Positions 28,470 through 38,777 of a stretch of 64,000 bases of DNA are shown in pieces. Where the stretch lies: contig JAEUSB010000046.1 in assembly GCA_016788865.1 (NCBI GenBank), positions 1 through 64,000 of the forward strand, given 5' to 3'. Position numbers and translations under genes: made by a program. This DNA is from Leptospirales bacterium. GTDB taxonomy: Bacteria; Spirochaetota; Leptospiria; Leptospirales; Leptonemataceae. Below the pieces are notes generated by a model. That model searched no databases. It was not told the DNA's origin and saw nothing but the letters and a program-made list of their open reading frames with translations. The first letter of the stretch is position 1. Each line of letters starts with the position of its first letter.

Positions 28470-30260
28470 TCAAATGGCTCCGGAATTCCCGGAGAAACGC
28501 GCCAGACGCTTCCGGATGGCCAGATTCACCGCCTGGATCAGCTTTTGCACAGGGCGGAATACAGGCGCCAATTTAGAGAATAGCCAGGCGATGCGATCGA
28601 GTTGCCGTTGCACGATGGGCGGCCTCAGCTTCCGGAGAGCCTTGCGAAAACGCTGTTTGAAGCCTTCCGTCCTTGAGGCCATTACATACATTCCCATCAA
28701 GGCCACCGCAATATTGGGAGCCCAGCCACCGGCCACGGCACTGACCTTTCCGGACTCCGCGAAGTTCGTCCCTACGGCCACCAGTCCAAAATAGCCCAGA
28801 CAAACCGAAAGCGCGAGTCCAAAGCTCATTCCGCGGCCCGAACGCTTGACCACGAGCCCCAGCGGGAAGGAAATGAAAAAGAAGATCATGCAGGCCACGG
28901 ATTTTGCGATCCGCGTCTGGATCTCCAGTCTGAACTTTCGCTCAGAGACCGCAGCATTCTCAATGAAGAATCGCAACTGAAACGTCAGGGTGATTGCATT
29001 CTGCCATTGTTCGGGAGTCGGCCCGCCAGGTTTTCCAACATTCCCACCGTTCATCATCATCCAGGTCATATTCTGGTTGAGCATTAGTTTCATCTGATCC
29101 ATGGCCGGAAGCTTGATGGTAAATCCCTGGCCCGCGGCCGCCGCTTTCGCAGCATCCCCTTGCTGCATTAGCGGCCCTACGATTTGCATGGGATCGATTT
29201 CTGTTCCGCCCTCTTCGAGCTTTCGCAGAAAATCAAATAGTTCGAAGAAGGTGTAGTTTTCAGGACGGACGTTCAATTGACCGAGCGATCGCGGCGGCGG
29301 CGGAATCACATAGTCCATGCTTCCGTTTGTAAAATCTGTTGTCTGAACCCGGGAGAGATCCTGGGAGATTTCGATAATGAAACCTTTGTTCAGGCGCAAG
29401 AGAGCCTCTTTTGAACTCTCCTCAACCGGTGCTTGCTGCGGTTTCATTGGCAATTGCGACGGGTCGATTCCAGGCGGCAGGTCCGTGACCTGCGGCTCTT
29501 CTTCTTTGGGCTCCGGGATCTTCTCGCGCTCAATAAGCTGCCCACTCTCTGCATGTACAATCTGCGTTATGAACCCGTCTCCAATTGGAATGAGCATATT
29601 GCGAACCTGGATTCGCTCGGACGATTGCTCATCGACGCTGTTTAACCATTCACGGATGTGAACTTCTTTGAGGATTTCATTTTCGCGCTGGCCGGCATAA
29701 ATGTCCTGCCCCTTTAGACTGACCCCGTCCATCTTTGCGTTTCCCAGAAAACGGCCCGTCTTTACGAGCGTCAGACTGTGGTAGGACTTCAGCCAGTTTT
29801 CAAAATCCTCTCTGGCCTTGGCGCTCACCGGCCCATAGTACAGATTCATGAAGGCGACGATGCACGTTGTCAGGAAACCGGCGAACAAGAAGACAGCGTA
29901 AATCCTGGGGAAACTGACCCCCGCAGAACGCATTGCTACAATTTCTGAATCACCTGACAGCCTTCCGGCTGCGAGAATTCCGCCAAACAAGCAGGCAATT
30001 GGAATAGCCTGCGTGATTTTCTCTGAGATTAGATTAAAGAGGTAATAGAGGACTTTGTAGATTGGGATTCCCTTACCCAGCAGCTCCACGACTATGTCTT
30101 TCAAAACGATCGACATAAAAAGCGTGGTTAGAATAAGCAAACATACCAGAAATGGTACGAGAATCTCGAGGAATATATAGCGATCGAGAATGCGCGGTTT
30201 TAATTTGCCGAGCTTTCGAATTGCGAAGCCGGGAAAGTTACGCAGACTGGTTGAATTCAT
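28470..30260 (-). CDS. LptF/LptG-type LPS export permease with a large insertion
   Basis: A 596-residue YjgP/YjgQ-family permease. Three N-terminal membrane helices (about 25-150) include ILDRYIFLEIL and the conserved SGDSEIVAMRSAGVSFPRIY; three C-terminal helices lie near 475-560. Between them is a periplasmic region of about 300 residues, larger than usual, that holds the expected jelly-roll plus a Pro/Gln/Met-rich stretch (about 250-420). LptF and LptG form the membrane part of the ABC exporter that pulls lipopolysaccharide from the inner membrane. The ATG at 30260 has no Shine-Dalgarno site; a TTG at 30272 with TGGAG upstream is an alternative. The ATPase LptB is not in the window. Confidence 0.88.
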   Translation of the reverse strand: MNSTSLRNFPGFAIRKLGKLKPRILDRYIFLEILVPFLVCLLILTTLFMSIVLKDIVVELLGKGIPIYKVLYYLFNLISEKITQAIPIACLFGGILAAGRLSGDSEIVAMRSAGVSFPRIYAVFLFAGFLTTCIVAFMNLYYGPVSAKAREDFENWLKSYHSLTLVKTGRFLGNAKMDGVSLKGQDIYAGQRENEILKEVHIREWLNSVDEQSSERIQVRNMLIPIGDGFITQIVHAESGQLIEREKIPEPKEEEPQVTDLPPGIDPSQLPMKPQQAPVEESSKEALLRLNKGFIIEISQDLSRVQTTDFTNGSMDYVIPPPPRSLGQLNVRPENYTFFELFDFLRKLEEGGTEIDPMQIVGPLMQQGDAAKAAAAGQGFTIKLPAMDQMKLMLNQNMTWMMMNGGNVGKPGGPTPEQWQNAITLTFQLRFFIENAAVSERKFRLEIQTRIAKSVACMIFFFISFPLGLVVKRSGRGMSFGLALSVCLGYFGLVAVGTNFAESGKVSAVAGGWAPNIAVALMGMYVMASRTEGFKQRFRKALRKLRPPIVQRQLDRIAWLFSKLAPVFRPVQKLIQAVNLAIRKRLARFSGNSGAI

Positions 30261-30281
30261 GAAACGCAACAAGAGACTCCA

Positions 30282-31325
30282 TTGAAAGCCGTTATCATCC
30301 AAACAGCGTTCCTGGGTGACGCTATACTGACTACACCGATGTTCGCCGCATTCAAGCGTTTTTTTAAAGACGCAGAACTCACAGCAGTCCTCCGCCCGGA
30401 TGGGGCGCAATTATTGGCAGGATTGCCGTCGCTCAACGAAATTATTCCCTACGATAAAAAGAAAAAGCACCGCGGGATCTCCGGCATTCGTCGCCTTGCC
30501 TCGGAACTCCGCGATCGTCAGTTTGATGTGCTTCTGTCACCGCATGGATCACATCGTACGAGTTTTGTTTCAATGTTTTCAAAGATTCCTGAACGATATG
30601 GATTCAAGGATGCAGGATTCGCGCGTCTGGCTTACAATCATCGATTGGAAAGACGCGGGGAGCTTCCAGAAATCAAGAGGCTATTGCACTTCCTGAGCGA
30701 TTCCGTCTGTCCTGGCGCATCCGACTTCTCAACGCAACTCTCGTTGATTGAGGATGCGGCTTCATTACAGGAAGCGGATGCCCTGCTCAGGAAGCACGAG
30801 GCTTTGCGGCCTATTCTACTTGCGCCATCGTCGATTTGGCCAACCAAACGCTGGACTCCATACGGTTTCGCGGAACTCGCAGCCAAACTGGTTCGGAAGT
30901 ACAAAACAAAGGTACTGCTTGTGGGTGCTCCCGGTGATCGTCCGGTTTGCGATTCTGTGCAATCGTTCTTAAAAGAGTTTCAGCCGCATTTCATTCAAGA
31001 GAAGGTTGTTACAATTGCTGGCGATACGAGCCTTCGCGGTTTCTACAGCCTCGTCAAGAAAGCACGGATTCTAATCTCAAATGATTCAGCACCGGTGCAT
31101 TACGCATGCGCAGCAGGAACTCCAGTAGTTGCCATTTTTGGTCCAACTGTGCCTGCATTGGGATACGCCCCAATAACAAAGAATTCACGCATTGCGGAAC
31201 TGGATCTTGCCTGCAGACCCTGCGGAACGCACGGTGGACTGGTTTGCCCACTGGGTCATTTCAGATGTATGAAAGAGCTCAGTGCTGATTCAATTATGGA
31301 GCAAGTTCAGGCGCTCTTGCCCTGA
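30282..31325 (+). CDS. Glycosyltransferase family 9 (heptosyltransferase-like)
   Basis: A 347-residue GT9 enzyme that adds heptose, or a related sugar, to the LPS core from an ADP-sugar donor at the inner face of the inner membrane. It has the N-terminal pattern KAVIIQTAFLGDAILTTPMF, the middle APSSIWPTKRW (donor-binding P-loop-like region) and the C-terminal SNDSAPVHYACAAGTPVVAIFGPT. It begins with TTG at 30282 with AAGAGA upstream. It diverges from the Lpt permease gene with almost no space between starts. Exact sugar position cannot be read; waaF-like is the closest general type. Confidence 0.9.
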   Translation: MKAVIIQTAFLGDAILTTPMFAAFKRFFKDAELTAVLRPDGAQLLAGLPSLNEIIPYDKKKKHRGISGIRRLASELRDRQFDVLLSPHGSHRTSFVSMFSKIPERYGFKDAGFARLAYNHRLERRGELPEIKRLLHFLSDSVCPGASDFSTQLSLIEDAASLQEADALLRKHEALRPILLAPSSIWPTKRWTPYGFAELAAKLVRKYKTKVLLVGAPGDRPVCDSVQSFLKEFQPHFIQEKVVTIAGDTSLRGFYSLVKKARILISNDSAPVHYACAAGTPVVAIFGPTVPALGYAPITKNSRIAELDLACRPCGTHGGLVCPLGHFRCMKELSADSIMEQVQALLP

Positions 31326-31420: not shown

Positions 31421-32242
31421 TCAAAAAACCAGAAAGTCGCCCGGATCAATCACCTTCCCTTTCATCCGGATCTCATAGTGCAGATGCGGACCGCTTGAAG
31501 CGCCCGTGCTGCCGGAGTATCCAAGCAATTGACCCGCCCGAATCTCCTCGCCATTCTTGACAGACACGGATCTCAAATGACCGTATAACGTCTCATAGCC
31601 CGACGAATGCAAAAGTATGACATGATTTCCGTATCCGTACGGTGATTGAACTGCGGATTTTACAACACCGTCCGCAGAGGCTATCACAGGTGTGCCTGAG
31701 TTTGCTCGTAGATCCACTCCTGGATGGAACTCCCGACTGCCAAACACTCCAAAGACGGACCCACGGGTACCGTAGCCTGAATTCAAGAAAAGGGTCTCGA
31801 GCTTTAGAGGCCAGGCATGCGGGATCTCACGGAAGAAGCCGGAGTATACGCCCGCGTAGTCAGAATTGGAACGAAGTGTACTCAATATGCGATGAACCGG
31901 CTTTTGCGGAACCGACGGTTCATCGCTATCATAGAATCGTCTAAACCCGGCCGGCTCATCCTGGAAGATTGTGTGCATCTCCCGCTGGCGCGATTCAAGT
32001 ATTGCAAGCAACCGTATGTTCTCTTTCACGTCCAGGAATAGAGCTCTGCGCTTTGGATCACTGATCGACTCGTCCCCGGAGGCTGCTTCGTTTTCAAACA
32101 GGCTGAACAGGACAAGTAGCGTCAGCGATATAACACCGAGACCCACGGCGTGGCCAATGTAACGAGAAAACTGAGGTAAGCGAATGCGAATAACGTGATC
32201 TGATCTAACGGTAGACGGTCGGGCTCGCTGTGAGGACACCAT
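31421..32242 (-). CDS. Membrane-anchored M23 metallopeptidase
   Basis: A 273-residue protein with a basic N-terminus, one membrane helix (about 29-48) and a C-terminal M23 domain. Zinc ligands are His173 and Asp177 in FHPGVD and His255 in GPHLHYE, with His222 in YGHL, so the site is complete. The ATG at 32242 is chosen because the longer frame only runs over the upstream gene; it still overlaps that gene by 38 bases. It is the last gene of the ParA envelope set. The likely role is local peptidoglycan cleavage in the periplasm. Compared with the M23 gene at 22595, it has an N-terminal anchor instead of a cleaved signal. Confidence 0.9.
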   Translation of the reverse strand: MVSSQRARPSTVRSDHVIRIRLPQFSRYIGHAVGLGVISLTLLVLFSLFENEAASGDESISDPKRRALFLDVKENIRLLAILESRQREMHTIFQDEPAGFRRFYDSDEPSVPQKPVHRILSTLRSNSDYAGVYSGFFREIPHAWPLKLETLFLNSGYGTRGSVFGVFGSREFHPGVDLRANSGTPVIASADGVVKSAVQSPYGYGNHVILLHSSGYETLYGHLRSVSVKNGEEIRAGQLLGYSGSTGASSGPHLHYEIRMKGKVIDPGDFLVF

Positions 32243-32909
32243 TTTTGTAATTGGATTCCACGTAGGGCCGCCCGTCCGGATAGAAGCTCCGGAGTTGCCC
32301 GTCGAGCGCCCCGCGAGCATAGTTCTCTTCTCTAAGTAAAGTGCCATCGGGGTAGTAATACAGCCATCGGCCAACGACAGTGTCTTTTTGATACTGTCCG
32401 CGCAAAAGCACACGGCCATTCGGGTGGTATCGTGTCACAGGCCCCTCATAATATCCAGCCTTAAATCCACCCTCTTCTTCCAGCCTTCCATCCGGATAGT
32501 AGCGCCGATAGACGCCATTTTCGTTTCCATAGTCGTGCGTGACCAGAAAGATGAAGTCCCGCTTGGGCTCCTGCGCGTAGGTCATGCTCAAATAGAGGCG
32601 CCCCTTATCGTCATAGAAGTTCCAGACACCGTCGCGCCAGTCCTTGATGAACTCGCCCTGCGACAGGGTCTTCCCGCGCGGCGAAAAGTACGCCCATCGT
32701 CCGGTGCGCTCGCCCAGCGAACCAATTGGCCCCCTGGAATACGGAGCGCCGTCCGCGTAGTAGGTAATTGCTTCGCCGGCCGTCTTAACCGACCAGAGGC
32801 CGGATCTTCTGTCCCGTTCAGCCTCGGGCGGAATGCCGGCAGGCCTGGGCGGTTCTTTGAGCCGCTGGCAGGAAAGGACTGCAAGCAAGCAAGCGGCAAG
32901 AATTCGCAT
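32205..32909 (-). CDS. MORN_2-repeat lipoprotein
   Basis: A 234-residue lipoprotein with a short signal peptide and lipobox A-V-L-S-C at Cys14. The mature part is made of about seven to eight MORN_2 (YwqK-like) repeats, with patterns such as YYPDGRLEEEGGFKAGYYEG and YYPDGTLLREENYARGALDG. These repeats form beta-hairpin stacks. They are a separate type from the MORN protein at 3638. Its start overlaps the stop of the membrane-protein gene before it (ATGA) and its end overlaps the M23 gene after it. The YwqK label antitoxin in some databases is not supported by any toxin here. Confidence 0.85.
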   Translation of the reverse strand: MRILAACLLAVLSCQRLKEPPRPAGIPPEAERDRRSGLWSVKTAGEAITYYADGAPYSRGPIGSLGERTGRWAYFSPRGKTLSQGEFIKDWRDGVWNFYDDKGRLYLSMTYAQEPKRDFIFLVTHDYGNENGVYRRYYPDGRLEEEGGFKAGYYEGPVTRYHPNGRVLLRGQYQKDTVVGRWLYYYPDGTLLREENYARGALDGQLRSFYPDGRPYVESNYKNGVLTASPTVYR

Positions 32910-33784
32910 CAGCGAACCCGGAACTCTTTATCCCTCAGCGTAGTGCCCGATTCATCGAGGACTTCAACGTGATACTGACCTGGATCCAGCGGACCCTTAA
33001 AATAGACATAATTTGCAGTGCGAGGTGGCTTCTGCCCGAGGACAGCCTGCTCTTCAGCCTGGCCTCCGTCCACACGATCGACCTTAACCTTTAGATACGT
33101 TGCTTTGAGTTTCTCTTCCGGCCATTGAAACCGAATGTGTACGTCATGCCCGGCGCTGAGAGAGGGTTCTTCCCCTGCCAGGTCTTCCACGTTCTCTGCC
33201 GTAATTTCCTGAGATGAGACCGCGAGCATATACTTGGGCCCAAACAGCCAGCCGCCCGCGTAATACACGCCGAACCCCAGGACAACGACAAGAAGCCCGC
33301 CCGCAATTAACCTGGCTTTACCACCGGCGCCACCACCAGAAGTTCCTCCGCCATCTGTGTAATCTTCCAGGCGAATATCACTGGAAATATTATAGATGGA
33401 ATCTCTTCGGGATTTCTTCAGCTCCATGCGAGAGTGCTCCTTGTGCCCAGATTCTGATGACTGGATGCCGGGGGAAACGCTTTTTATGTCCTCTCTTGCG
33501 GAGTCCCTCTGCGGTGGACCCGCATCGGGCCTGGATGAAGGTGTCATCTCTTCCGACCGATTCACCGTCCGCGTTGTTTCAGATTCCACCTTGCCCGGGT
33601 CCTGAACGTTTCCCTCACCACCGCCCGATCCCGGCCGATCGCCCGACACCGGATTACCTGCGAATTCGGCACCACGCATTTCCCGGACGAATTCCTGCAT
33701 GTTGGAGCGAGCGGGCGGTGATCCCATTGACTCATCGAGGCGCTTCCGCGCTGCCTCACCCAGCTTATCCTTTTTCGATGCCAC
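32909..33784 (-). CDS. Single-pass membrane protein of unknown function
   Basis: A 291-residue protein. The first 150 residues are disordered, rich in Ser, Gly, Pro, Glu and Arg. A Gly-rich run leads into one membrane helix (about 158-178, LIAGGLLVVVLGFGVYYAGG). The last 110 residues form a beta-rich domain that should lie in the periplasm (FQWPEEKLKATYLKVKVDRV and following), perhaps an Ig-like fold. The topology gives a cytoplasmic tail near ParA and a periplasmic domain near the lipoprotein and M23 enzyme. Its start overlaps the parA-like gene by 20 bases. A link between ParA and the envelope is an inference. No family recognised. Confidence 0.7.
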   Translation of the reverse strand: MASKKDKLGEAARKRLDESMGSPPARSNMQEFVREMRGAEFAGNPVSGDRPGSGGGEGNVQDPGKVESETTRTVNRSEEMTPSSRPDAGPPQRDSAREDIKSVSPGIQSSESGHKEHSRMELKKSRRDSIYNISSDIRLEDYTDGGGTSGGGAGGKARLIAGGLLVVVLGFGVYYAGGWLFGPKYMLAVSSQEITAENVEDLAGEEPSLSAGHDVHIRFQWPEEKLKATYLKVKVDRVDGGQAEEQAVLGQKPPRTANYVYFKGPLDPGQYHVEVLDESGTTLRDKEFRVR

Positions 33785-34526
33785 GCAGCACTTCCTCCGT
33801 TAGCGCCAGGTACTCCTGCGCTACTCGATTGCTCGGTTCGTATTCGAATACCGTCTGTTTCATCAGAAAGGCTTCTTCCACAGCCACGAGTCTTGATATC
33901 TTGGTCTCAAAGATAGAAATATATTCCTGAATGGGCTCCATCATAGCATGCGTAATTGCAGTGCGCGGATTGTACATTGTAAGTACTCCACCGAGCGTCT
34001 TGAGTTTGGTGTTATACCTGGTCTGCACTGCCTTCAAGGTCGAAGAGAGTGCTGCAAGACCATCTAGCGAAAACTTTGCCGTTTGCAACGGAACAATTAC
34101 ATGGGTCGATGCCACAAACGCATTTACGGTAATCATGCCCAGATTAGGCGGGCAGTCAATAATTACAAAGTCATGAGGCAATGGCTGCATTGTCATGGAT
34201 TCTGAAAGCCGGAAGAAACCATCAATGGCGCCGGAAATTAGACTATCGATTTCTGCCAGGTGAATTGTGGCCGGAACAATGTCGAGATTTGCGTTTCGTG
34301 TCCCATGCACGAGCTGGGCTAATGGACGTTTCTCTTTTAGTGCCGCGTAGACTGTCCTCTCAAGCGGTATTTCCGATTCCAGAAAGATGGAGCTGGCGTT
34401 AGCCTGCACGTCAATGTCGATGAGCAGGACCTTGCTTTTTCGCGAAAGAGCGTCAGCCAGATGCACGGCCGTAGTTGTCTTGCCTACACCACCTTTGGAA
34501 TTTGCGACTGCGATGGCTGCTTTCAT
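33765..34526 (-). CDS. ParA/MinD-type ATPase
   Basis: A 253-residue deviant-Walker ATPase. The P-loop KGGVGKTT is at 11-18, with both signature lysines, and the Walker B region reads VLLIDIDVQANAS; IDCPPNLG follows near 125-135. The family binds ATP as a dimer on DNA or membrane and positions cargo. There is no ParB gene or parS site beside it, so it is not the usual chromosome partition pair. It sits inside an operon of membrane and envelope genes, its start overlapping ubiD (ATGA). That context suggests positioning of an envelope complex, which is inference. The ATPase fold itself is certain. Confidence 0.9.
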   Translation of the reverse strand: MKAAIAVANSKGGVGKTTTAVHLADALSRKSKVLLIDIDVQANASSIFLESEIPLERTVYAALKEKRPLAQLVHGTRNANLDIVPATIHLAEIDSLISGAIDGFFRLSESMTMQPLPHDFVIIDCPPNLGMITVNAFVASTHVIVPLQTAKFSLDGLAALSSTLKAVQTRYNTKLKTLGGVLTMYNPRTAITHAMMEPIQEYISIFETKISRLVAVEEAFLMKQTVFEYEPSNRVAQEYLALTEEVLRGIEKG

Positions 34527-36445
34527 GGCCGTTCCACCGCCACAGGATCAACACCGAACATTGCCTTCCATTTTGAATCGACAAGCTTGATTGTCGCATT
34601 GTCCATCAAGTTCTCCTCAGGCCAGGCGCGATCGTATCCATCTGCTGAGTTCTTGGAAGTTGCGTCCAGAATTGCAACCGTCCCCGCAGTCTTGTTTGCA
34701 ACAAGTTTTAGATCGCGGAGCACGTCCGTGTTTCCAAACAATTTCCAGAGCACAAGGGATGCATTCGTGGGCGAATCCTTTGCGTCAATCAGAAGCAGGA
34801 TTGTACACGGGAGCTCTGCCTCCATGTCAAGGCGCAGAGTATCAGCAATGCGATCCGGCAGTTTGCCCGTGCTCCCTTTGTCAATGGAGAGAATCAAAAC
34901 CGGATTTCGCAGATCTCTCGCAAACAGGTGTGAGTTTACAACCTTGATCCCGGCAGATTCAAGTTTGGATTTCCATGAGGCTATTATCTCTTCCCGCCGG
35001 GAGGATGCCGCATAACGGATTGGTGTGGAAGGGCTCTTTTCTTCAGGCGTTTTTGTCGTAACATCGATTCCAAGCTTGCCGCCAAATAGCGGACGAATTC
35101 CACTGTGATCGAGTTGATCAAGGACACCTTCTGTGATCATTAAATCTGTTTCCAGATCAAGTCTGTCCAGAATGTAGCCAAGCAACGCCGACTGATTTGA
35201 ATGAAGATCCACATTTGCATCCACTACAATGAGCATCTTTGAGAAGCTCATCTGCGAGAATCCCCAGAGATGACTCATGAGTTTCCGTCCCTGAAAGGGA
35301 AAGGTCTTCTCCATTGCAAGGACAGCGCAATTATGAAAGCACCCATCCCAGGGAAGCATCTGGTCTTTCACTTCCGGTGCAATAAAAGATAACATAGGAA
35401 GAAACAGACGCTCTACAGCGCGCGCCAGATAGCAATCTTCTTGCGGACTTCTGCCTACAACGGTTGCAGGAAAGATGGCACCTTTGCGCATAGTGATCGC
35501 AGTAATATGAAAACGCGGAAACGGTTCTACGGGAGTGTAGTAACCCGTATGGTCTCCAAATGGGCCTTCCTGTGCAAAGTCATCGGGATCTACATACCCT
35601 TCGAGAATGATCTCTGCATCCGCTGGCACTTCAAGATCGTTGGTTTTGCATTTTACGACGGGCACCCCGCTTCCGCGCACAAACCCGGCCATGAGCAGCT
35701 CGTACAATCCCGGCGGCAGCGGCGCGATTGCTGAAAATGGAATCGAAGGATCTCCGCCAAATACAACGGCTACCGGCATCCTTTGTTTGGCCTTGCGATA
35801 CTGTCCAAAGAAATGTGATCCATCCTTGTGGATTTGCCAGTGCATGATGGCAGTCTTCTTATCCAGGATTTGAATTCTATACAGACCAAGATTCCTGGTG
35901 CCCCCATCGAGCGAACGCGTGAGCGTCATGCCGAACGTTATGAATCGTCCGCCATCGAGCGGCCAGGACTTGAGGATTGGGAGTGCGTCGAGATCTATCT
36001 GATCCCCCGTCCACACAATCTCCTGACAGACAGCCTTTCCAAAGCGCTTTCTCCTTGGAGGAAATTTAAGTATTCGGTTTGCCTGGCCGGCAAGGGCAGC
36101 TAACGCACCGAGGCTTGCAGGAGGCTTCAGTTGCAATAGTTTCATCAACTCTCGCAACTCCGATGCGATTTCTACCAGCATCCCCGAACTTGCTTTGGTT
36201 CGGTTGCGGTTAAGCGAAAGCTCAAGACGCCTATCAGATCCGTAGGCATTGATCAATACAGGGAGTTCGCTGCCTTCAACGTTTTCAAACAAAAGCGCCT
36301 TTCCTCCACCTGGAGAACGAATCTGGCGGAAGTAGATTTCTGAGATTTCCAGATCGCGCGAAACAGGAGTTTGAATTCGAACCAGTTCTCCTTCCGCCTC
36401 AAGTACCTTGATAAATTCCTGGAGATTACGGTAGTATTTGCTCAT
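34523..36445 (-). CDS. UbiD-family decarboxylase
   Basis: A 640-residue protein of the prenyl-FMN-dependent UbiD family, with an N-terminus YYRNLQEFIKVLEAEGELVRI and a catalytic core with GPFGDHTGYYTPVEPFPRFHITAI, then a C-terminal region of about 130 residues longer than the usual 490-residue length. In quinone makers it removes the carboxyl group from the aromatic ring; in other cases it acts on unrelated aromatic acids. UbiX, which makes the cofactor, is not in the window. It follows a 143-residue unknown gene by 12 bases and overlaps the parA-like gene. A role in menaquinone or ubiquinone synthesis is likely but not proven by sequence. Confidence 0.88.
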   Translation of the reverse strand: MSKYYRNLQEFIKVLEAEGELVRIQTPVSRDLEISEIYFRQIRSPGGGKALLFENVEGSELPVLINAYGSDRRLELSLNRNRTKASSGMLVEIASELRELMKLLQLKPPASLGALAALAGQANRILKFPPRRKRFGKAVCQEIVWTGDQIDLDALPILKSWPLDGGRFITFGMTLTRSLDGGTRNLGLYRIQILDKKTAIMHWQIHKDGSHFFGQYRKAKQRMPVAVVFGGDPSIPFSAIAPLPPGLYELLMAGFVRGSGVPVVKCKTNDLEVPADAEIILEGYVDPDDFAQEGPFGDHTGYYTPVEPFPRFHITAITMRKGAIFPATVVGRSPQEDCYLARAVERLFLPMLSFIAPEVKDQMLPWDGCFHNCAVLAMEKTFPFQGRKLMSHLWGFSQMSFSKMLIVVDANVDLHSNQSALLGYILDRLDLETDLMITEGVLDQLDHSGIRPLFGGKLGIDVTTKTPEEKSPSTPIRYAASSRREEIIASWKSKLESAGIKVVNSHLFARDLRNPVLILSIDKGSTGKLPDRIADTLRLDMEAELPCTILLLIDAKDSPTNASLVLWKLFGNTDVLRDLKLVANKTAGTVAILDATSKNSADGYDRAWPEENLMDNATIKLVDSKWKAMFGVDPVAVERP

Positions 36446-36457
36446 TTGCTTTTCTGA

Positions 36458-36889
36458 CTATTTGCGCGCCAGCACGCCGGAAAACTGCAACACGGCCCTT
36501 GCTTGCTTCTGGTCCTGTTCCTCAAGCGAGATATGACACCGTTGATCGTCCATTGCCTGGAGAACCATTTTGTGAGAGCCGGAGGCGATGGTCGCTAGAT
36601 CCGCTTCAAATCGTGCGGAATCAAGACCCAGGTTGAAGTCAGGAAAAGCGTCCGGCAAGCGCTTGAATGGCGCTCGGAGTTTTGAGATCAATTTCTGTTT
36701 CAATGATTGTCGTCTTGTCCGCAGCGCGCTGACTTCCAATCCCTTCCCTTTGCAATTGATCTGAAGCTTTATTTGGGCGTCCTCGGGCCAGTCCACGTAA
36801 CCATGCGTGCCGATTCCTTTCCAGCGCCCGCTGAAATAGTCAGTAAAACCGGATGCATCCTTAAAGTGACGAAATATAGTTTCACTCAT
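36458..36889 (-). CDS. Unknown 143-residue protein
   Basis: A 143-residue soluble protein with no signal peptide or membrane helix. It has an N-terminal aromatic patch (DASGFTDYFSGRWKGIGTHGYVDW), a beta-rich middle and a basic stretch (RRQSLKQKLISKLRAPFKRL) in the centre. It overlaps the stop of the Lpt permease gene (ATGA) and lies 12 bases before ubiD. The fully coupled position shows it is a real gene. I do not recognise the family. The beta-rich make-up with a positive segment might suit a lipid- or nucleic-acid-binding fold, but this is only a guess. Confidence 0.65.
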   Translation of the reverse strand: MSETIFRHFKDASGFTDYFSGRWKGIGTHGYVDWPEDAQIKLQINCKGKGLEVSALRTRRQSLKQKLISKLRAPFKRLPDAFPDFNLGLDSARFEADLATIASGSHKMVLQAMDDQRCHISLEEQDQKQARAVLQFSGVLARK

Positions 36890-37983
36890 TTACGATTCTT
36901 CCATACAAGATACGCTGCAGCTCCCAGAAAGCCCAGTGTGGGCGTCCAGGCAGCCACAGACGGCCAGATTACGCCGTTGTTACCCATGCTGGACATAAGT
37001 CCGGCACCCAGGTAGTAAATCAAGATTGTAATAACAGAAAGAAGAAGCGCCCGAACCAGAGGACCGGCGGATCTGTGACTTCCTCCGGCGCCCGCAACTG
37101 ATGCAATCACGGCCACAATAAAACAGAAGAATGGAAAAGCAATGAGTGAATGAAACTGAACTTCATATGTCGTCACGGTGAACCCGAGACTCGTCTTCTT
37201 TCTGATTTCACGAAAGAGCTCAAATACATTCAGCTCCGAAGGGTCGCGCAAAGGATTTTCAAAGAAGTCGTACTCATCCGGAAACTTTTCAGTCAATTCA
37301 TCGTACGATTGAATCGATTCAATACCGATGTCAGGTCTGAATTTAATCTCCCTTACTTTCTTAAACAACCAGGAATCAGTTTCAGGTGAGTACTGTCCGG
37401 AATTTGCCTGAATCATGCGAATCGGTTTGCCATTTGTAATCTGAATGTAGTTGAACCCGCCTTTGATCGCCTTCTCCTTTCGGTCCAGATAATAGATGAA
37501 ATAGTAACCCTCGCGCCCGCGAAGATTCCGCTGCCATACCAGATCTTTTACGGTTGCAGTATCTTTCTTAAAGATTGCCTGTTCTTCTGCAGCCAACCGG
37601 TTCGACGGTGTTACAACAAAATTCTGAAACAAGAATAGTGTGATGACAAGTCCGCCCGCAAAAATCCAGATGGGTGCAACGGCCCGATAGAACGACACGC
37701 CCGCAGAAAAGATCGCCACGAGTTCCCGAGAAACGGAGAACTGTGAAACCACAAAGCAAACCGAGAACATCACAGCCATTGGCAAAACAAACGCAACAAC
37801 GGAAGGGACAGAGTATAGAAGATACAAATAGATGTGATACCTGGGCGCACGCGTCACAACTTTCACTGTGTCCAGTGCCTGGAACGTCAGCCACATCATT
37901 GCAAGACCCGTCAGGGCAAACGCAAACGACTTCAGGAATTCGAAGAATAGATATCGGTCGAGAATCGAGAAACGGCTAAACAT
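36886..37983 (-). CDS. LptG/LptF-type LPS export permease
   Basis: A 365-residue YjgP/YjgQ-family permease of normal length, with three membrane helices at each end and a periplasmic jelly-roll (about 130-260). Conserved features include SILDRYLFFEFLKSF at the N-terminus and SRELVAIFSAGVSFYRAV. It should pair with the longer permease at 28470 as the LptFG dimer, though the two genes lie about 7 kb apart. It begins by overlapping the stop of the lipid-kinase-like gene (ATGA) and ends by overlapping the 143-residue gene. Which of the two is F and which is G cannot be told from the sequence alone. Confidence 0.9.
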   Translation of the reverse strand: MFSRFSILDRYLFFEFLKSFAFALTGLAMMWLTFQALDTVKVVTRAPRYHIYLYLLYSVPSVVAFVLPMAVMFSVCFVVSQFSVSRELVAIFSAGVSFYRAVAPIWIFAGGLVITLFLFQNFVVTPSNRLAAEEQAIFKKDTATVKDLVWQRNLRGREGYYFIYYLDRKEKAIKGGFNYIQITNGKPIRMIQANSGQYSPETDSWLFKKVREIKFRPDIGIESIQSYDELTEKFPDEYDFFENPLRDPSELNVFELFREIRKKTSLGFTVTTYEVQFHSLIAFPFFCFIVAVIASVAGAGGSHRSAGPLVRALLLSVITILIYYLGAGLMSSMGNNGVIWPSVAAWTPTLGFLGAAAYLVWKNRK

Positions 37984-38777
37984 CAGGTGCGAGCAAAGAG
38001 GTTCGTTGGATCAAAAAGAATGGCATCGAGTGGAAAGCCAAGCAGCCATGCTGTTGTTGCCATGGCAATTCCCGCGAGAATGGGAACTTCCAGGTTGTCA
38101 TCCAGAAAGCCATTCAAGCGGTTATTGGAAAAGAATTCTGTTACGGCGGCAAAGATTCCGCCCGCAATTAGAATGGTAACTAGCTTCCACCATGATTCAC
38201 CTACGAGCGAGTATGCGGCCAAACGGACTGCATTGGGAAAATGCATGCTGATCAGCCATGTATGCAGTGCGGAAAACGAAAACGCGGCAAGAAAACCAAC
38301 CAGGAAGAATCCGAGCATTCCTTCCAGGGACTTTGAATTCCAGAAACGAATCCTTCCAAAGCGGCCACCAATGTATGCGGCTGCTGGATCACCGAGCATC
38401 AAGAAAGTGCAGGCGCAACCCGCAATGATGTCCTGTGTAAAAGTAAAAAGCAGCAGTGTTGCCGTTAGATAGGGGACCGTGGCATTCATCCGACCCTTTT
38501 CTTGCTCCTTTAACAAAGGACCTGCAAAGTGGATGAACAATTCGTTGATCCCATCGTACCGAAAACGCAACAAATCTACGACGATAAGCCCCACGAGCAT
38601 GACAATATTCAGCGAAAGACCAACGATCCTGGTCGCGTGAATATAGCCGGTATCAAGCAAGAGGATTGGATCAAAATAGAAGAATGCCGGGACCAGGAGA
38701 CCAAGCATATGCCAGAGCTTTCTTTTGAAGTTAAACGAGAATTGGACCGCTCTCGGCTGCACGCTGATCCATTTCAT
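37983..38777 (-). CDS. CTP-dependent lipid kinase / dolichol kinase-like membrane protein
   Basis: A 264-residue integral membrane protein with about seven to eight helices. The stretch GDPAAAYIGGRFGRIRFWNSKSLEG, read as G-D-P-A-A followed by K-S-L-E-G, is the signature of the Sec59/dolichol kinase and CTP:diacylglycerol kinase group, and it is related to CDP-diglyceride synthases. The probable reaction is CTP-dependent phosphorylation of a lipid alcohol such as diacylglycerol or polyprenol. It is first in the eight-gene chain, with its stop overlapping the Lpt permease start. The substrate is uncertain. Confidence 0.82.
   Translation of the reverse strand: MKWISVQPRAVQFSFNFKRKLWHMLGLLVPAFFYFDPILLLDTGYIHATRIVGLSLNIVMLVGLIVVDLLRFRYDGINELFIHFAGPLLKEQEKGRMNATVPYLTATLLLFTFTQDIIAGCACTFLMLGDPAAAYIGGRFGRIRFWNSKSLEGMLGFFLVGFLAAFSFSALHTWLISMHFPNAVRLAAYSLVGESWWKLVTILIAGGIFAAVTEFFSNNRLNGFLDDNLEVPILAGIAMATTAWLLGFPLDAILFDPTNLFART

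Follow-up and report, generated by a model that had tools for sequence, protein, structure and literature searches.

Known partners of ParA/MinD ATPases contact the ATPase through an N-terminal helix that is basic, and the remainder of the protein serves for cargo (PMC12204374, PMC10241942, PMC12462528). In the ParA/MinD positioners that we compared from the literature, that cargo is cytosolic or lies on the membrane surface. We analyzed a stretch of 64,000 nucleotides (nt) from a Leptospirales bacterium (contig JAEUSB010000046.1 of assembly GCA_016788865.1, positions 1 to 64,000; the whole stretch is called the window below). It encodes a ParA ATPase and, immediately downstream, a single-pass membrane protein of 291 amino acids (aa), which we call the adaptor. 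We think that these two proteins probably form a ParA/MinD-type positioning pair in which the adaptor spans the inner membrane and holds cargo in the periplasm; a partner that faces the periplasm would set the pair apart from the systems compared. If this is right, then the cell would use the nucleoid to measure positions in its envelope, by way of a ParA and a membrane-spanning partner found across the class, and a ParA otherwise filed as an orphan would have a likely partner. No description of such a ParA from these organisms turned up in literature searches.

We found that the conserved core of the locus is parA together with the adaptor gene, and not the run of eight genes in which the two lie in the window (Table 1). 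We took 48 genomes of the class, from six families, fetched up to 20 kilobases (kb) around the best ParA match, and drew the gene orders. The same genomes were searched for the adaptor with a profile made from a class-wide alignment of 32 sequences (A1), and the adaptor was found in 35. Both genes were present in 34 of the 48 genomes and neither was present in 12, with two exceptions, one of each kind (Fisher p 2e-9, phylogeny ignored). Seven of the eight genomes of one family (f2) are among the 12 that lack both. In the 34 genomes, which come from all six families searched, the two genes are adjacent and usually overlap. That is, the association of ParA with a single-pass membrane protein, proposed in a preliminary description of this DNA, is stable throughout the class. 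Both exceptions can be explained: one genome (G010) has its ParA at the edge of a contig, and the other (G011) has an adaptor and no ParA match anywhere in the genome. The adaptor usually starts within the end of parA, 19 or 3 bases back, and the junction at -19 recurs in many genomes of the window's family. A start inside the end of parA suggests that the two genes are translationally coupled. G020 has two nearly identical copies of the ParA-adaptor-MORN_2 locus on different contigs (G020:C1:730393-731151 and G020:C16:10854-11612), likely an assembly duplicate or a strain mixture. Most genomes of the class come from uncultured bacteria, but homologous loci are also present in near-complete genomes.

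The ParAs that accompany the adaptor are a group of their own. All 36 adaptor-linked ParAs formed one clade (support 0.94, or 0.85 after more sequences were added), and the ParB-linked ParAs, plasmid-type (21) and chromosomal (19), fell outside it. Wherever the next gene is visible, loci of this clade have the adaptor in place of ParB. Every other ParA that we checked in the class has an adjacent ParB if its downstream gene is visible; one copy, in G009, stops at a contig edge. The preliminary description had noted the lack of parB and parS, and we agree: there is no ParB gene beside the window's ParA, and the window has no parS-like site below three mismatches. The only near-perfect parS sites in the genome are two palindromes, each matched on both strands (four matches), at C16:5700 and 6093, beside a separate chromosomal parAB.

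By sequence the ATPase is Soj-type, and its best matches in the PDB are 8ray and 1wcv (Soj). The deviant Walker A motif KGGxxKT, the Walker B motif and the switch aspartates are invariant or nearly so among the 36 ParAs. The arginine at the position that we take to be equivalent to R189 of Bacillus subtilis Soj is present in all 36. These intact features would be expected if ParA partitioned DNA with a ParB encoded elsewhere and the membrane protein merely anchored ParA. We regard that reading as very improbable, given that nearly all other ParAs of the class have a ParB of their own, that parS sits at another parAB, and that ParA and the adaptor are lost together; partition with an adjacent ParB is disfavored as well. 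The window's ParA ends in EEVLRGIEKG right after the conserved terminal helix. By eye we saw no MinD-like C-terminal amphipathic membrane-targeting tail in the sequences, and the last 20 residues of the window's ParA contain a single tyrosine, not the tyrosine cluster of bacterial tyrosine (BY) kinases. With no ParB, no parS and no membrane tail, the pair belongs neither with ParABS nor with MinD, as judged from these sequence features.

The architecture predicted for the adaptor is what would be expected of a ParA partner set in the membrane. A basic N-terminal helix (residues 4-19) and a second helix (29-38) are followed by a disordered linker, a transmembrane (TM) helix (154-180) and an immunoglobulin (Ig)-like domain (186-290). 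AlphaFold2 confidence (pLDDT) was above 90 for the TM helix and the Ig-like domain, and a second model, of a distant adaptor from family f3, had the same layout. For both models the top Foldseek match in the PDB was 6oe6, an uncharacterised structure from Leptospira interrogans. A PDB profile search, made with the whole adaptor or with the periplasmic domain, gave chance-level matches only and did not reach the sequence of 6oe6. Conserved class-wide are the N-terminal helix with its near-invariant K-K-D, which is the most conserved stretch of the cytoplasmic region in an otherwise divergent protein, and the short, FVxxI-like second helix; the linker is hypervariable. The first 20 residues of the adaptors have a mean net charge of +3.4 and a minimum of +1, and a positively charged N-terminus of this kind is predicted to bind ParA. 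Because the cytoplasmic tail is basic, the Ig-like domain is probably periplasmic. Our main functional argument is one of analogy: since known partners use such a basic N-terminal helix, we read the adaptor as a partner of ParA.

Neither Pfam nor NCBIfam assigned the adaptor to a family. DUF2914 (PF11141) was considered and rejected. It gave weak matches to 13 of 32 adaptors (best 1.2e-4), the window protein scored 13.8 against 23.6 bits, and no adaptor exceeded the cut-off in nine genomes; literature searches found no paper on the function of DUF2914. Outside the class, adaptor-like proteins in G098 and G050 align only over the TM helix and periplasmic part, and the 14 kb fetched around their genes contained no ParA. 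Proteins of this kind outside the class (L168:6904-7389 and L169:6595-7311) have the TM helix and periplasmic domain, no KKD tail and no ParA nearby.

The genes downstream of the adaptor are less constant than the pair. In the window they encode a MORN_2 protein and an M23 endopeptidase. The former has three stretches that match MORN_2 and a lipobox cysteine, and a lipobox-like context is found in nearly all of its relatives with a full N-terminus. The M23 protein has both zinc motifs, HxGxD and HxH (in the window, FHPGVD and HLHYE), as does its orthologue from the same genus (L068). A MORN_2 gene lies 3' of the adaptor gene in all readable loci of the window's family and, in a sister family, in one genome (G022). 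The M23 gene is next to it in 11 genomes of the window's family, from six of eight testable genera, and is absent from this position in the near-complete G007 and throughout genus g3; in G021, G014 and G010 the contigs end too early to score it. Apart from MORN_2 in G022, neither gene is 3' of the adaptor outside the family, G032 included. Family f3 (genera g21 and g28) has instead a lipoprotein-like protein of ~2500 aa with PD40 and TPR repeats (for example, 2511 aa at L100:11104-18639), possibly a very large periplasmic partner. Family f5 has a SurA_N lipoprotein-like protein, and f4 and f6 have a YegS-like kinase and exonuclease III, respectively, both named by reading the sequence. It seems from these gene orders that the periplasmic partner changes by lineage.

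The preliminary description had proposed that ParA, the membrane protein, the lipoprotein and the M23 hydrolase are a system that positions cell-wall cleavage, and had suggested looking for this block in relatives. The block does recur in the 11 genomes, the four genes overlap in the window, and in G011 the adaptor gene diverges from a bactofilin gene paired with a LysM-M23 gene. A single machine that places local peptidoglycan hydrolysis is thus a tentative reading that fits most genera of this family. But the M23 gene is missing at the locus in G007, g3, G022 and the other families, where the next gene is one of the four just named. Because of these absences, positioned wall cleavage is possibly one lineage's use of a general module of ParA and membrane adaptor, and at most that. 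It is a special case of the positioning pair, and our confidence in the one overlaps with our confidence in the other. A transmembrane switch, in which the ATPase cycle of ParA toggles periplasmic partners through the adaptor, as in FtsEX or split BY-kinase/adaptor pairs, would also account for one ATPase encoded together with one single-pass adaptor, for the bitopic adaptor with its periplasmic domain, and for the M23 gene beside them in most genera of the family. We find a switch somewhat less plausible still. The ATPase is Soj-type and has no tyrosine-rich tail, many carriers of the pair have no M23 gene at the locus, and a long, hypervariable, disordered linker would be a poor transmitter of conformational change.

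The genome that has an adaptor and no ParA bears on the positioning pair. The adaptor of G011 begins at MPSSRESIYN, and exactly the N-terminal part proposed to contact ParA is missing. This looks like a natural experiment in which ParA and the tail that would contact it are both gone. The region in which the short gene diverges from the bactofilin and LysM-M23 pair is L105:1485-3723. In 32 of 34 adaptors a methionine is found 26-39 residues ahead of the TM helix, although only 9% would be expected per gene (methionine is 0.6% of the linker). A Shine-Dalgarno (SD) match of at least 6 bases precedes 5 of 32 internal methionines, from two genera only, compared to 1% of control codons; the relatedness of the sequences inflates both of these counts. 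A perfect AAGGAG is found 9 bases 5' of the methionine in the window's genus, g1. This signal is strong in g1 only, partial in g3 and at background elsewhere, and for that reason we keep a second, shorter adaptor product as a lead, one that the start of the whole G011 protein in that same zone strengthens. An elaboration, for which we have limited confidence, is that ParA/MinD positioning of periplasmic cargo through the bitopic adaptor is tuned by the short, internally initiated form, acting as a ParA-blind competitor or diluter.

Based on these results we infer the following for the ParA-adaptor pair. ParA-ATP dimers would be located on the nucleoid, and the basic N-terminal helix of the adaptor would bind the dimer interface, causing ATP hydrolysis and release. 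Through many repeated contacts, complexes of the adaptor would be spread or centered within the inner membrane, with the nucleoid as reference. Envelope cargo would be held by the periplasmic Ig-like domain, in this family the MORN_2 lipoprotein and in most genera also the M23 endopeptidase, and the outcome here would be placed or paced peptidoglycan work. Three points weigh against this proposal. The arginine equivalent to Soj R218, by the same presumed mapping as above, is replaced in most of the clade, leaving a position that is not basic (a neighboring arginine is present in 30 of 36), and nucleoid binding may therefore be weak. The downstream genes vary between families, so that the cargo named here is a candidate. 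The third point concerns G011, whose genome is small and incomplete and is split into short contigs.

The other genes of the window bear on whether the eight are a unit. As the preliminary description had stated, eight open reading frames follow one another on the minus strand, with six overlapping junctions and one gap of 12 bases. In 5' to 3' order the junctions are 37983/37983 (overlap 1), 36886/36889 (overlap 4), 36458/36445 (gap 12), 34523/34526 (overlap 4), 33765/33784 (parA/adaptor, overlap 20) and 32909/32909 (adaptor/MORN_2, overlap 1); the last, MORN_2/M23, overlaps by 38 bases from the ATG at 32242 or by 215 from the first ATG at 32419. The overlaps suggest that one transcript could span the eight genes. 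The M23 gene ends at a terminator-like stem with T6 (31444-31429), but comparable stems are about as frequent in the region as chance predicts. The family names given earlier were borne out by Pfam and NCBIfam for LptF_LptG, UbiD, AAA_31/ParA, MORN_2 and Peptidase_M23, all above cut-off, but not for the lipid-kinase-like protein.

Table 1. Features of the parA-adaptor locus, with positions in the window.
Feature	Position	Strand	Basis or remarks
264-aa membrane protein, called lipid-kinase-like (name unverified)	37983..38777	-	homologues in 43/48 class genomes
LptF/LptG-type permease, LptG-like	36886..37983	-	Pfam LptF_LptG; forms a pair with the gene upstream in most class genomes
143-aa protein	36458..36889	-	orthologues in this position restricted to L068 and L069; beside parA only in g1
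UbiD family, menaquinone decarboxylase type	34523..36445	-	NCBIfam mena_SCO4490 (TIGR03701), 548 vs cut-off 495.9 bits
ParA ATPase, 253 aa, adaptor-specific clade	33765..34526	-	AAA_31 4e-46
parA/adaptor overlap, 20 bases	33765..33784	-	adaptor GTG start; SD GGAGG inside parA
Adaptor, 291 aa, single-pass	32909..33784	-	class-wide alignment A1, AlphaFold2, Foldseek
Internal ATG of adaptor, Met120	33425..33427	-	AAGGAG 9 nt upstream; candidate start, product without the putative ParA-contacting tail
MORN_2 lipoprotein, 234 aa, lipobox LAVLSC	32205..32909	-	MORN_2 6e-21; position conserved in family
Membrane-anchored M23 endopeptidase, 273 aa (start at ATG 32242)	31421..32242	-	M23 4e-33; zinc motifs intact

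The eight genes do not hold together as a functional unit. The 264-aa, LptG-like, 143-aa and UbiD genes are 5' of parA in genus g1 only (three genomes, one truncated by a contig end). Most other genera of the window's family have a divergent gatB beside parA, and families f3 to f6 have a gene like that of fructose-6-phosphate aldolase/transaldolase 5' of parA (both named by sequence reading, with no family search). Since the order 5' of parA differs outside g1 and the 264-aa/LptG-like pair sits elsewhere, the eight genes are independent blocks that came together in one lineage. One pathway linking lipopolysaccharide (LPS) export, quinone synthesis and ParA would agree with the tight overlaps and with an identical gene order in G001 and, up to the contig end, in G002. 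We give it almost no credence: the layout is confined to a single genus, elsewhere the 264-aa and LptG-like genes pair by themselves, and the first four genes are at scattered positions in relatives.

The 264-aa and LptG-like genes (36886-38777) are a separate conserved pair, adjacent in most genomes of the class and generally far from parA, perhaps a link between a lipid-modifying enzyme and LPS export. The permease scored 168.9 bits, below the 240-bit cut-off of the LptG equivalog, and is not placed in LptG. Neither the 264-aa nor the 143-aa protein matched a Pfam or NCBIfam family over cut-off. The UbiD gene is not adjacent to parA outside g1. Beyond the MORN_2/M23 end lie a gene like that of a GT9 heptosyltransferase and another LptF/LptG permease gene (28470-31325), in an order conserved in much of the family.

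The pair resembles several described systems in part. McdAB, which positions carboxysomes with a ParA/MinD ATPase and McdB, is alike in outline; however, McdB is cytosolic and acts on a cytosolic organelle, whereas the adaptor crosses the inner membrane and probably faces the periplasm. Chromosomal ParABS has in common with the pair a Soj-type ATPase and a partner whose N-terminal peptide activates (PMC12462528), which is a prediction for the adaptor. Here, in contrast, both the ParB fold and parS are lacking, the partner sits in the membrane, and the genome has a separate ParAB with parS. In PpfA/TlpT and ParC/ParP, which place chemotaxis clusters (reviewed in PMC9178275), an orphan ParA also positions a protein cargo, but no chemotaxis genes are beside the pair here and the partner's architecture is different. 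MinD/MinE shares the deviant Walker A ATPase family and an envelope-related output. MinD itself differs in its C-terminal membrane-targeting extension, which we did not see in this ParA; the partner holds the membrane anchor instead. Modules of bactofilin and M23 (PMC10945521) are similar in that an M23 hydrolase is under spatial control from the cytoplasmic side. The window genome has six bactofilin genes and ten relatives have three to seven. No bactofilin gene is at the window locus, and the adaptor adjoins a bactofilin-M23 pair only in G011, where ParA is gone.

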